Shown here one piece after another: positions 8,065 through 60,002 of a DNA stretch of 63,897 nt (positions are counted from its first letter, which is position 1; every line of letters starts with the position of its first letter). The notes beneath the pieces were generated by a model. That model saw only the letters and a list, made by a program, of their open reading frames with translations, did no database searches and had not been told where the DNA came from. The stretch covers positions 1 through 63,897 of the forward strand of contig DWWN01000043.1 of the NCBI GenBank assembly GCA_019119685.1. The letters run 5' to 3'. This DNA comes from Candidatus Faecalibacterium faecigallinarum (lineage in GTDB: Bacteria > Bacillota > Clostridia > Oscillospirales > Ruminococcaceae). The translations under genes and the position numbers were made by a program.

Positions 8065-8256
8065 GCCCTCTCCGGCCCTGCGGGCCACGGTTGCGGTGCC
8101 CTGTTTTTGCTGCGCCCGTCGCTGCGGGCTTGCAAAAAACAGACCGCTGCCCCTGCTCCGCTTCGGCTGTCTCGTCCGCTGGACGCGCCTCAGCTGCGCA
8201 GTCCCGCACGCGGGGGAGCTGGCGAGCGAAGCGAGACTGAGAGGGCTCATCAACCA
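8065..8256. repeat. GC-rich mosaic intergenic repeat, copy 1
   Basis: Non-coding DNA filling the glnN-glnA gap. It contains CCCTCTCCGGCCCTGCGGGC, GGTTGCGGTGCCCTG, the CGCTTCGGCTGTCTCGTCCG segment and GCGAGCGAAGCGAGACTGAG. Parts recur near 25.5-25.9, 33.4, 56.1 and 58.5 kb; the 58.5 kb copy is inverted. No frame is supported here. Confidence 0.75.
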
Positions 8257-27700: not shown

Positions 27701-27735
27701 ACGTCCCTTTGCAGCCCGCAGAACGAGCTTATTGT

Positions 27736-27936
27736 AAAAAGTCCCGCCCGGACGACATGTGCGTACGGGCGGGACACATACAGGGAAATGGAGCGCTGAG
27801 AGTGTGCGAGGCCCCTCGGGCCGAGTGCGCGGTTCAGCGCTTCATTTTGTCTAAAAGGGGGATACCAGGGGGGAAGAATTTCTGACCTGCGTATGCAGGC
27901 AGAAATTGGTCCACCCTGGAGCGTGGCGCAAGCCAC
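27736..27936 (+). ncRNA. Structured RNA-like element, HEARO/omega-RNA-like, intact copy
   Basis: About 200 nt without a coding frame. GTCCCGCCCG pairs with CGGGCGGGAC around the loop GACGACATGTGCGTA. Then CTGAGAGTGTGCGAGGCC and GGGCCGAGTGCGCGG form the next helices, closed by AGCGCTGA/TCAGCGCT. The 3' part is AATTTCTG-CCTGC/GCAGG-CAGAAATT. The copy at 58.4 kb keeps the loops but changes the first stem to GTCCAGACT/AGTCTGGAC, so pairing is conserved and sequence is not. The layout recalls the HEARO RNA that guides IscB nucleases; no iscB is in the window. I judge 'structured RNA' likely and 'HEARO-like' tentative. Confidence 0.55.
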
Positions 27937-28014
27937 ACTTGGCGGGCTGTTTTTTTGCGGCAAAATATGGTATACTACTGCCAGTGTCACCAACAACCGA
28001 AGGCAGGAGCGGCT

Positions 28015-48644: not shown

Positions 48645-48860
48645 GCATACAGCTTTGCTGTGATGCTTGCCATGTCGGACAGCGCCTGCTGCGCGGTTCG
48701 GCATACGGATGCGGGCCCTGTACGACTGGGCCGCTGTGAACCAGGTCAGGTGGGGAACCAAGCAGCCTTAAGCGGCGTGCACGGTGCGTTTCAGCCAGCC
48801 TGCATTCGTATGCCGAGCTTCGCAAGGCGGGGGACAACCCCGCGGCGCTGTCCGTATTTT
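48645..48860 (+). ncRNA. ffs: Signal recognition particle RNA (SRP RNA)
   Basis: The conserved domain IV is clear: CCAGGTCAGG, TGGGGAACCA, AGCAGCCTTAA. The long hairpin closes through GGCATACGGATGC/GCATTCGTATGCC and CGGACAGCGCC/GGCGCTGTCCG, ending in TATTTTTA. A 5' hairpin (AAGCAT/ATGCTT) belongs to the same transcript. The RNA scaffolds Ffh for membrane targeting of ribosomes. As in Bacillus, it lies directly before dnaX. Exact ends are approximate. Confidence 0.88.
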
Positions 48861-52419: not shown

Positions 52420-52769
52420 GGGGGCGTAAAGGTTTCGACGGGGGGAGCGAGGCCTGGGCAGCGGGTAGCAGCGGGGGACCTGCTCTAAAATCCTCCAAAA
52501 CAATAACTGACAACAATCGTTATCAGCTCCAGGCAGCCTGAGTGCTGCCTCGTTCCGCCCACATTTGTGTCGTGTGGGGCCGGGGCGTCCTTTAGACACA
52601 GCACGTGAACGGACCTAAGCTTTGCGGACCGTCATGAACTTATGAAGCTACTGAAGCGTTAGCCTGGCGACCGGCGTGACGCAGAGGGAATGTCGTTGAT
52701 CGCCTGCACCCGGAGATACTCACGCTGAACTCTTTTCGGACATGGGTTCGACTCCCATCGCCTCCACCA
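52420..52769 (+). ncRNA. ssrA: Transfer-messenger RNA (tmRNA)
   Basis: The tRNA-like ends pair as GGGGGCG/CGCCTCC, followed by ACCA, with TAAAGGTTTCGACGGGGG at the 5' side and the T-arm CATGGGTTCGACTCCCATCG at the 3' side. The tag frame reads about TITDNNRYQLQAA and stops at the TGA at 52539-52541, inside the usual hairpin (GGCAG/CTGCC). The ending QLQAA is a variant of the common LAA. It tags proteins on stalled ribosomes together with SmpB. Confidence 0.95.
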
Positions 52770-58422: not shown

Positions 58423-58818
58423 GTCCAGACTGGACGACATGTGCGTACAGTCTGGACACCGACAGGGAAATTTTCCGGTGAGAGTGTGCGAGGCCGAAGG
58501 CCGAGTGCGCGGTTCGGCGCTAAATTTTGTCCCCAGGGCAGCGGCGGCGAAGCGCGTCCAGTGGACGAAGCAGCGAGCCGCCGCTGGCTGCGCAGCTGAG
58601 GCGCGTCCTGCGGACGAAACAGCCGAAGCAGAGCAGGGGCCGCGGTCTGTCTTTTGTGAGGGCGCTGCGGCGCCCGAAGCAAAAGCAGGGCACCGCAACC
58701 CGGAGCAGCGCTCCGATTTTCGCAAGCGCTTGCGCGCCGCGAAAACCGGCTAAGCGCAAGAGGATTAGGGGGAAGGAATTTCTGTCCTGCGCAGCAGGCA
58801 GAAATGGGTTTCCCCTGG
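58423..58818 (+). ncRNA. Structured RNA-like element, split copy
   Basis: The same element as at 27736, in the gap between the sialidase-like and dehydrogenase genes and antisense to them. 58423-58534 holds the 5' part: GTCCAGACT/AGTCTGGAC around GACGACATGTGCGTA, then GTGAGAGTGTGCGAGGCC and GGCCGAGTGCGCGGTTC. 58758-58818 holds the 3' part: GGGGGAAGG, AATTTCTG-CCTGC/GCAGG-CAGAAAT, GGGTTTCCCC. About 220 bp of mosaic-repeat DNA sits between them. The interruption falls where the intact copy has a short linker (AAAAGGGGGATACCAGG). Confidence 0.5.
58535..58757 (-). repeat. GC-rich mosaic repeat, copy 5, inserted in the structured element
   Basis: Inverted relative to copy 1 at 8.1 kb: CAGGGCACCGCAACC here is the reverse complement of GGTTGCGGTGCCCTG there, and CGGACGAAACAGCCGAAGC matches GCTTCGGCTGTCTCGTCCG with one change. 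No coding frame is supported. Confidence 0.75.
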
Positions 58819-58838
58819 AAAGCGCGCTTTTGCGCGCT

Positions 58839-60002
58839 TTATTTGGTTCCCTGGGCGGCGGTGGGGTTGTACAGGCCCACCCGCTCCCGTTTGGCGCCCA
58901 GCACGTCCTCCTCGCGGAAGCGGACGTACTTGATCCCCTGCCGGGTGCGGGCGGCGTAGGCCAGGTGCAGCGTGCCGTCTCTGCCCTGCATGAGATAGGG
59001 GTACTCATACTGTTTGTTGTTGGTGCGGTTTTCCTCCCCCATGAAGCCCTCGCCCCGCTCCATCCAGCGGATGAGGGGGAAGGTCAGGCCGCCGTCCTCG
59101 GACAGGGCCACCGCCACCGGGCAGCGCAGGCCGGGCCAGGCCGCCTTGCCGGGCTGGGGGTCGGGGGTGCAGGTGGGGTTGCAGGCGATGGCGATGCGCC
59201 CACTGGCCAGCTTGACGGCGCTGATGCTGGAGTTGTTGTTGGGCAGCGGGGTGGGCTTGGGCTCGGTCCAGCTGTCGCCCCAGTCGAAGGACTCGCTGCG
59301 GTGGATGCGGTAGGCCTCGCGGTTGCGCATGAAGGCCACCAGATGGCCCGGCTCTAGCTCCACCACGTTGGCGTGAACATGGCCGTTGGACTTGGGCATC
59401 ATGACCATCCGCCAGGTCTTGCCCTCATCGTCCGAAATGCGGAAGGCGGTGGGGTCCCCCGACAGGCCGTCGGCCGAGTCGGTGCAGAGCCAGTTGGAGA
59501 AGATCCACCGGCCGTTGGACAGCACCTGGATAGGCTGGCGGCAGAAGGTGCCCTCCTCGGGGAACACCGTCTCATAGGGGCCCCAGGTGCGGCCGCCGTC
59601 AAAGCTCTTCTGGCAGCGGACCACCGAGGTGAACTGCATATTGTCCTTGCCGGGCACCCGGTCCAGCTGGGCGGTGTACATGGCCCAGACCGCGCCGTCG
59701 GGCCCGTAGAACAGGGACGGGTTCTGTTCGCTGCGGGTGGGGTCCCCCGAGATGTCCACCGGGGGCAGCCAGGCGGGGGCGTCCTTGGGCAGCAGCGAGC
59801 AGATGATGTGGATGTCGGCGCTGCCCTCATAGGTGCCGGCAAACCAGCAGCAGAGCAGGTCGCCGCCGGGCAGCTCCACCATGGCGGGGGCATGGGCCGT
59901 GGGCCAGCCGCCGGTGGGCAGCAGGGCTTCCACCGTGCCCATCTCGTCGTTCTGATACAGGGTGCCGTCCCAGGTCAGGCCGGGCAGTTTCGGATAAGTC
60001 AT
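58839..60002 (-). CDS. Sialidase-fold (BNR repeat) protein, cytoplasmic
   Basis: 387 residues. Asp-box repeats of a six-bladed propeller are seen: SFDGGRTWGPYE, SDDEGKTWRMV, SESFDWGDSWTEP and SEDGGLTFPLI. FCRQPIQVLSNGRWIFSNW and PYLMQGRDGTLHLAYAAR fit the exo-sialidase BNR_2 type. There is no signal peptide, unlike secreted sialidases, so it acts inside the cell, perhaps on an imported uronic or sialic-like sugar. I start at MTYPKLPG (ATG 60002), 8 nt after AAAGGA; ATG 60008 is too close. It follows the kinase by 19 bp. Confidence 0.85.
   Translation of the reverse strand: MTYPKLPGLTWDGTLYQNDEMGTVEALLPTGGWPTAHAPAMVELPGGDLLCCWFAGTYEGSADIHIICSLLPKDAPAWLPPVDISGDPTRSEQNPSLFYGPDGAVWAMYTAQLDRVPGKDNMQFTSVVRCQKSFDGGRTWGPYETVFPEEGTFCRQPIQVLSNGRWIFSNWLCTDSADGLSGDPTAFRISDDEGKTWRMVMMPKSNGHVHANVVELEPGHLVAFMRNREAYRIHRSESFDWGDSWTEPKPTPLPNNNSSISAVKLASGRIAIACNPTCTPDPQPGKAAWPGLRCPVAVALSEDGGLTFPLIRWMERGEGFMGEENRTNNKQYEYPYLMQGRDGTLHLAYAARTRQGIKYVRFREEDVLGAKRERVGLYNPTAAQGTK

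Follow-up and report, generated by a model that had tools for sequence, protein, structure and literature searches.

A dispersed structured element in Faecalibacterium: a probable stem-loop-directed miniature transposable element with a strand-specific, RNA-like core

The contig DWWN01000043.1 of Candidatus Faecalibacterium faecigallinarum (GenBank assembly GCA_019119685.1), analyzed over all of its 63,897 nucleotides and called the window below, contains about 200 nt of non-coding DNA near position 27,736 that recurs in altered form near position 58,423. What is this element, and how does it spread? A first-pass annotation took it for a structured RNA with covarying stems, possibly an orphan HEARO or omega RNA served in trans by an IscB nuclease encoded elsewhere in the genome. 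We conclude instead that it is probably a miniature inverted-repeat transposable element (MITE), about 215 nt long, that an IS1182-type transposase would insert at stem-loops and that has a strand-specific, RNA-like core.

The element consists of about 178 nt folded into three hairpins, H1, H2, and H3, plus short ends. The H1 loop, GACGACATGTGCGTA, is exactly common to copy 1 (H1 at 27741-27775) and copy 2 (H1 at 58423-58457), as had been claimed, and a 14-base pattern of this loop without its final A has two exact matches in the window and four with at most two mismatches, against 0.40 expected. The two copies are laid out as follows, G010 being the genome of a sister species.

27713..27719 (+): AGCCCGC, the left arm of the terminator hairpin split by copy 1, from comparison with the empty G010 site
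27741..27775 (+): copy 1 H1 with the conserved loop, preceded by an A run
27780..27851 (+): copy 1 H2 with the core motif GAGAGUGUGCGAG..CGAGUGCGCGGUU, rich in G-U and specific to the plus strand
27865..27919 (+): copy 1 H3 (covariance-model match 27741-27919)
27920..27939 (+): copy 1 end hairpin H4, the right-end inverted repeat, read from the sequence
27942..27956 (+): GCGGGCT, the right arm of the split terminator, and its T run, from the sequence and the G010 site comparison
58423..58457 (+): copy 2 H1
58462..58531 (+): copy 2 H2, with some pairs broken
58540..58764 (+): copy 2 insert between H2 and H3, a module gamma broken by a module beta (about 58586-58700)
58765..58818 (+): copy 2 H3
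58819..58840 (+): copy 2 H4-like end hairpin

The folding energy of copy 1 is -119 kcal/mol and that of shuffled sequences -80 kcal/mol (z -8.1); copy 2 gives a z of -6.7. Together with double changes over many copies, described below, these scores bear out the proposal of a structured, RNA-like element with covarying stems. The earlier count of at least five co-changing pairs does not hold for the stem quoted, which has three compensated pairs between the two copies; two further double changes occur in H2, where about three pairs are broken in copy 2. The HEARO identity, by contrast, is not supported. Neither copy has a HEARO match at E ≤ 10 in Rfam 15, which includes that family (RF02033); at the same threshold copies 1 and 2 alone gave one and six chance hits, respectively, far below gathering scores, and a scan of the whole window found nothing at the element. 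Eight loci with relatives or modules likewise had no match at the element at the gathering threshold (a malK-I match in locus L124 lies away from it). Searches of 31 genomes of the genus for HEARO and for RRXRR/IscB (PF14239) returned 0 of 31 each, a weak result in both cases since the control genomes were silent too; for iscB, moreover, the window's own genome is 85% complete. The copies are gene-free and would need service in trans, so their non-autonomy stands, and it is IscB as the server that these searches fail to find. In size, high copy number, several hairpins, and lack of an internal gene the element does resemble an orphan HEARO or omega RNA served by an IscB elsewhere; with no model match, no IscB signal, and the long end duplications reported below, we find that reading extremely improbable. 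To our knowledge, such duplications are not known for IscB elements.

A search of the host genome (G000) for further copies found them, with covariation. The loop pattern has 13 exact matches there and 55 at no more than two mismatches, where the reversed pattern used as a control has 4, and a second version of the loop, GCCGACATGTGCGGA, has 28 matches. We laid out 47 loci, 32 of them insert-free, 10 with inserts, and 5 cut or without a recognizable 3′ end; L003, one of these five, retains only part of H1. Since L002 and L004, on two contig ends, are probably one single copy, the host genome holds at least 45. Contigs of this genome break in or beside the element at L002, L004, L011, L021, and L027; because contigs break at the element, copy numbers from draft genomes may err either way. 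A covariance model built from the 32 insert-free copies, with at most 88 candidates scored per genome, matches 11 of the 31 genus genomes and has no match in the other 20, which include all eight single-contig genomes. Its counts (74, 48, 90, and 76, among others) probably include weak reverse-strand shadows of palindromic hairpins, which is why the G000 copies were counted by eye. In 1.33 Mb of the sister-species genome G010, 50 matches reach an E-value of 1e-18 or lower. A search of 247 genomes of the family, run with tighter filters and a ceiling of 11 scored candidates for each genome, gave as a lower bound at least 5 matching genomes, 3 of them outside the genus.

Among the matches listed, the core motif occurs in Faecalibacterium (several genomes with chicken names), in Gemmiger avistercoris, and in Oscillospiraceae metagenome-assembled genomes (MAGs) with rabbit or goat names. 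The elements of the latter (L109, L124, L162, and L132) are alike mainly in the H2 core motif, and three rabbit-named ones have A-rich ends and duplicated hairpins on their flanks; these MAG elements are perhaps a separate but related MITE family. A Faecalibacterium-type copy (L089, DVON01000080.1, 202.7 bits) is filed under Candidatus Pullilachnospira and is perhaps mis-binned. Core-motif matches L115 (Planctomycetaceae) and L136 have no covariance-model match and look like chance. The blastn comparison with phage and plasmid records found no relative of the element, viral contigs had no exact core-motif match, and none of the open-license papers listed in literature searches appeared to describe it, which is no proof of its being unpublished.

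The covariation extends well beyond the two window copies. RNAalifold predicts 64 pairs from the 32 insert-free copies, with double changes in 19, and 18 sequences from several genera show double changes in 32 of 62 pairs. In this cross-genus set 95.4% of cells are paired, against 78.7% in shuffles, and the covariation score is 0.441, against 0.151 in shuffles and at most 0.106 in slid controls; the pair structure was taken from the Faecalibacterium alignment, which favors the nine rows of that genus. The sequence of H3 is largely replaced in other genera and its hairpin is kept (85-96% of cells paired). The RNA-like fold is conserved mainly on one strand, the plus strand. That strand folds more stably than its complement in 32 of 32 insert-free copies and in 42 of 42 copies of a second set (those of 50 alignment rows that are 166-184 nt long), with mean energies of -105 and about -89 to -90 kcal/mol for plus and complement, and the difference comes almost wholly from H2 (consensus energy -39.8 on the plus and -23.2 on the minus strand). 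One-sided deviations from pairing fall as G-U rather than A-C in 29:5 and 68:19 cells, and a structure predicted from the minus strand gives 2:15 instead; p-values for this bias are rough, since the copies are related and hence not independent data. The internal loops of H2 and six consensus G-U pairs are conserved as well.

These imperfections bear on whether the covariation reflects mutation rather than selection, that is, template switching in quasi-palindromes that copies one arm onto the other. The hairpins are long and GC-rich, as that process would have it, and in L024 the whole H2 apex is cleanly lost and a perfect short palindrome remains, as expected of hairpin-driven deletion. Arm-copying should, however, erase imperfections and show no strand preference, whereas six G-U pairs and the H2 internal loops persist and the deviations are one-sided in strand; neither palindromic DNA alone nor arm-copying mutation would give such a bias, and we judge a mutational origin of the covariation to be quite improbable.

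How the element reaches its sites is suggested by comparison between sister species. We compared the flanks of the 47 G000 loci with 1.57 Mb of G010 and found the orthologous site for 26, of which 18 are empty, 4 hold a copy in the same orientation, and 4 hold one in the opposite orientation (at L025, across a gap of 2.7 kb). Empty here means having no core-motif match; among the 18, L033 may hold a remnant, and L017 and L042 hold other inserted sequence. A non-coding element in many copies that turns over among relatives is what a MITE would look like. At the site of window copy 1, G010 is empty (L135/L286) and has an intact hairpin, GCCCGCAGC..GCTGCGGGC, followed by a T run; in the window the two arms of this terminator, AGCCCGC and GCGGGCT, stand apart with the element between them, so that, read by eye, the element has split the hairpin. 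Two other Faecalibacterium MAGs (L103 and L128) have an element in opposite orientation shortly beyond an intact terminator here. Also by eye, the terminator of the empty site seems to have been replaced by the element at L005, L040, and L041.

The ends of the element tell a similar story. The left end reads CAGACTGTC(A/G)AAAA and the right-end hairpin terminates in GCGACACGCTG (reverse complement CAGCGTGTCGC), which makes an imperfect inverted repeat; an H4-like right end is present in 29 of 42 G000 copies and 27 of 51 G010 copies, counting those in which H3 was found. Among 120 copies with usable flanks (39 from G000, 48 from G010, and 33 from named records), direct duplications abutting both ends reach a score of 14 or more in 16 copies, where 1.1 would be expected as estimated from mismatched flank pairs. 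At a score of at least 18 the figures are 12 observed and 0.05 expected, and at 20 or above they are 10 and 0. The duplications are 18-43 bp long and by eye are mostly whole hairpins; end-abutting duplications were also seen by eye in other genera (L365, L368, L109, L124, and L162). The duplication statistics, taken with the replacement and splitting read by eye, point to insertion aimed at stem-loops, and it is the site comparisons and the end structure that lead us to a stem-loop-targeting MITE rather than a HEARO RNA.

Position relative to genes, determined with a home-made gene caller that was checked on the window, raises a different possibility. The 46 G010 copies fall into 19 convergent and 27 tandem gaps, with none in divergent gaps and none within genes, although divergent gaps account for 43,345 of the 170,905 intergenic bases (25%); in 40 of the 46, the gene on the right has its 3′ end facing the element, a median of 18 nt away. 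The 38 G000 copies comprise 15 convergent, 22 tandem, and 1 divergent (these counts omit 8 edge copies in G010 and 4 in G000, along with 5 of the 47 G000 loci that were unrecognized). An A run stands ahead of H1 in 41 of 47 G000 loci and 41 of 57 G010 copies, so that the reverse complement of H1 followed by TTTTT resembles an intrinsic terminator. Placement just past stop codons, near-absence from divergent gaps, and this terminator-like bottom strand are what one would expect of a module in the 3′ untranslated region (UTR) that benefits the host, its fold selected in place to end or stabilize transcripts and its mobility secondary. Against such a role, most sites turn over (18 of 26 empty in the sister species), the conserved H2 fold lies on the strand opposite to the one bearing H1 plus the T run, and the orientation bias within tandem pairs is 21:6 in G010 but 11:11 in G000. 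We consider a host-beneficial module unlikely, if by no means far-fetched; because single sites turn over while the core persists, we favor a role for the core in spread. If the core does have a host function, each genome would carry a swappable RNA module at dozens of gene 3′ ends.

In the explanation that we favor, that of a stem-loop-directed MITE, a DDE transposase of the IS1182/IS1272 type would act in trans on the element. The enzyme would recognize stem-loops, often an intrinsic terminator just past a gene, and insertion would leave the target hairpin duplicated, replaced, or split; the folded plus strand, as RNA or as single-stranded DNA, may be retained as an aid to the element's spread. 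We infer both the transposase family and the reason for which the plus-strand fold would be kept. A stronger version, in which spread needs the element's own folded plus-strand RNA and the H2 core is a trans or cis RNA part of stem-loop-targeting transposition or of escape from host control, seems unlikely to us; the core is conserved across several Oscillospiraceae genera, with much of the rest changed. Should mobility turn out to require the core, a DDE transposition system would have an RNA component.

The candidate enzymes give a mixed picture. Of the 31 genomes of the genus, 8 encode IS1182-family transposases (PF13751); 5 of these belong to the 11 that carry the element and 3 to the 20 that lack it. 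Three such proteins that were checked exceed the NCBIfam NF033551 cut-off. The insertion sequence (IS) at L336, in genome G003, has both ends beginning with CAGACTGTCTAAC and has nine bases in common with the left end of the element. DDE_Tnp_1 (PF01609) is found in 6 of the 11 genomes with the element and in 2 of the 20 without it, and some of these matches are the same IS1182 genes. The distribution of a 229-residue IS5-like transposase (G000, G010, and G001) made it a promising candidate, but its ends, GAGCACCTAACAAAAC, viewed at L349 and L350 only, are unlike those of the element. A REP/RAYT-type Y1 transposase was rejected too, as PF01797 is absent from the element-rich genomes G000, G001, G006, and G010 and appears in only 2 of 11 element genomes (a 22-position fragment in G005 and a stop-interrupted copy in G016). 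Across the named loci and those of G010, no copy was seen to carry a gene at the H2-H3 cargo site, setting aside two long gaps that were not read further.

Bridge RNAs, which guide DEDD recombinases, may resemble the element in size and hairpin order, and the element could be a derivative of an IS110-type system, an RNA of about 178 nt with a 5′ stem-loop and two more. Element-rich G001, G006, and G010 do carry IS110 transposases. Across the sample, however, IS110 shows no clear association with the element (it occurs in 5 of the 11 genomes that have the element, namely those three, G005, and G016, against 5 of 20 others; none in G000, which is 85% complete), and long duplications would not fit such a derivation, which we regard as very improbable.

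Several observations weigh against the stem-loop-directed MITE that we prefer. The IS1182 family shows no clear association with the element across genomes: element-rich G010 has no PF13751 match, the G000 copy of the transposase has an internal stop, G003 with its matching ends is without the element, and no matching-end IS was seen outside G003 among 9 PF13751 and 16 PF01609 loci, partly viewed. Because the L336 genome lacks the element and G010 lacks PF13751, the transposase partner is inferred. A CAGACTGTC-like left end is present in only 24 of 47 G000 and 14 of 57 G010 copies (4.5% by chance), and 104 of the 120 copies have no clear duplication. The duplications themselves fit only a model proposed for IS1272, as the new IS1272 insertions are reported to carry none (PMC5678879). 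Terminator-like hairpins stand at 10 of 16 empty sites (L017 and L042 excluded; two more by eye), and control gaps have them in 48% (tandem), 81% (convergent), and 43% (divergent), so empty sites show no enrichment over ordinary gene ends. The strand bias is weaker when counted by alignment column (G-U to A-C 15:4, p 0.02, and 20:11, p 0.15). Finally, orthologous copies offer too few informative changes to reveal selection in place: eight pairs were tried, one of which failed and two of which were the same loci, and the two closest pairs together show three changes that keep a pair and two that break one.

Between H2 and H3 some copies have inserts, which include further repeats. Module beta, about 115 nt long and with the core GAAACAGCCGAAGCGGAGC, is a second repeat that is both structured and dispersed; 40 distinct copies were found, 18 of 37 predicted pairs show double Watson-Crick changes, and the module occurs both alone and inside the first element (L049-L073). 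Its seed pattern is present nine times in G009, a genome without a match to the element model. Module gamma, a third repeat, uses the same H2-H3 insertion point (L018, L038, L040, L043, L044, and L047). In the window the modules lie as follows.

58586-58700 (+): module beta
around 8155-8173 (-): module beta
58540-58585 and 58701-58764 (+): module gamma in copy 2, interrupted by beta

At L019, a copy with beta inside its H2 lies in sense orientation between a promoter-like sequence (by eye) and the start of the next gene. Other RNAs that the Rfam scan recognized in the window are a transfer-messenger RNA (52420-52769), a flavin mononucleotide riboswitch (957-1076), a signal recognition particle RNA (48709-48808), and a tRNA.

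Among known systems, HEARO and omega RNA are like the element in size, copy number, and non-coding nature; the element differs from them in its lack of a model match and of a detected IscB (the controls being silent) and in its end duplications. The closest likeness is to IS1182/IS1272, and the study of IS1272 is the detailed one on stem-loop-targeting transposition that we found (PMC5678879). IS1272, placed in the IS1182 family, is reported to replace inverted repeats or stem-loops of 21-85 bp without target duplications, and the model put forward by the authors also includes routes by which the loop alone or the entire stem-loop is duplicated (PMC5678879). The apparent replacement at our loci thus matches IS1272 insertions as observed; for duplication and splitting, the correspondence is with the model only. 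The two have in common shape-based targeting of stem-loops, replacement, a model that permits duplication, and inverted-repeat ends; unlike IS1272 as described there, the element is about 215 nt long, has no transposase gene, has an RNA-like core, and shows duplications, and IS1182-type ends that match its own come from one IS only, in an element-free species. Sites that are occupied, empty, duplicated, or apparently replaced form a natural series in which such transposition could be studied. Compared by description, the bcr1-bcr18 repeats of the Bacillus cereus group (PMC3446304) are also dispersed, intergenic, and MITE-like or structured, often in UTRs or operons, and BOX, RUP, and SPRITE of Streptococcus pneumoniae (PMC10969869) are intergenic with nested insertion and terminator-like motifs. 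In the latter comparison the difference is that modules beta and gamma sit within the element; in the former, the MITE-like (bcr1-3) and structured (bcr10, bcr18) repeats are different families, whereas here one element is both. The element thus unites MITE-style spread into terminator hairpins with a deeply covarying, strand-specific core, two properties that stand apart in the literature found.
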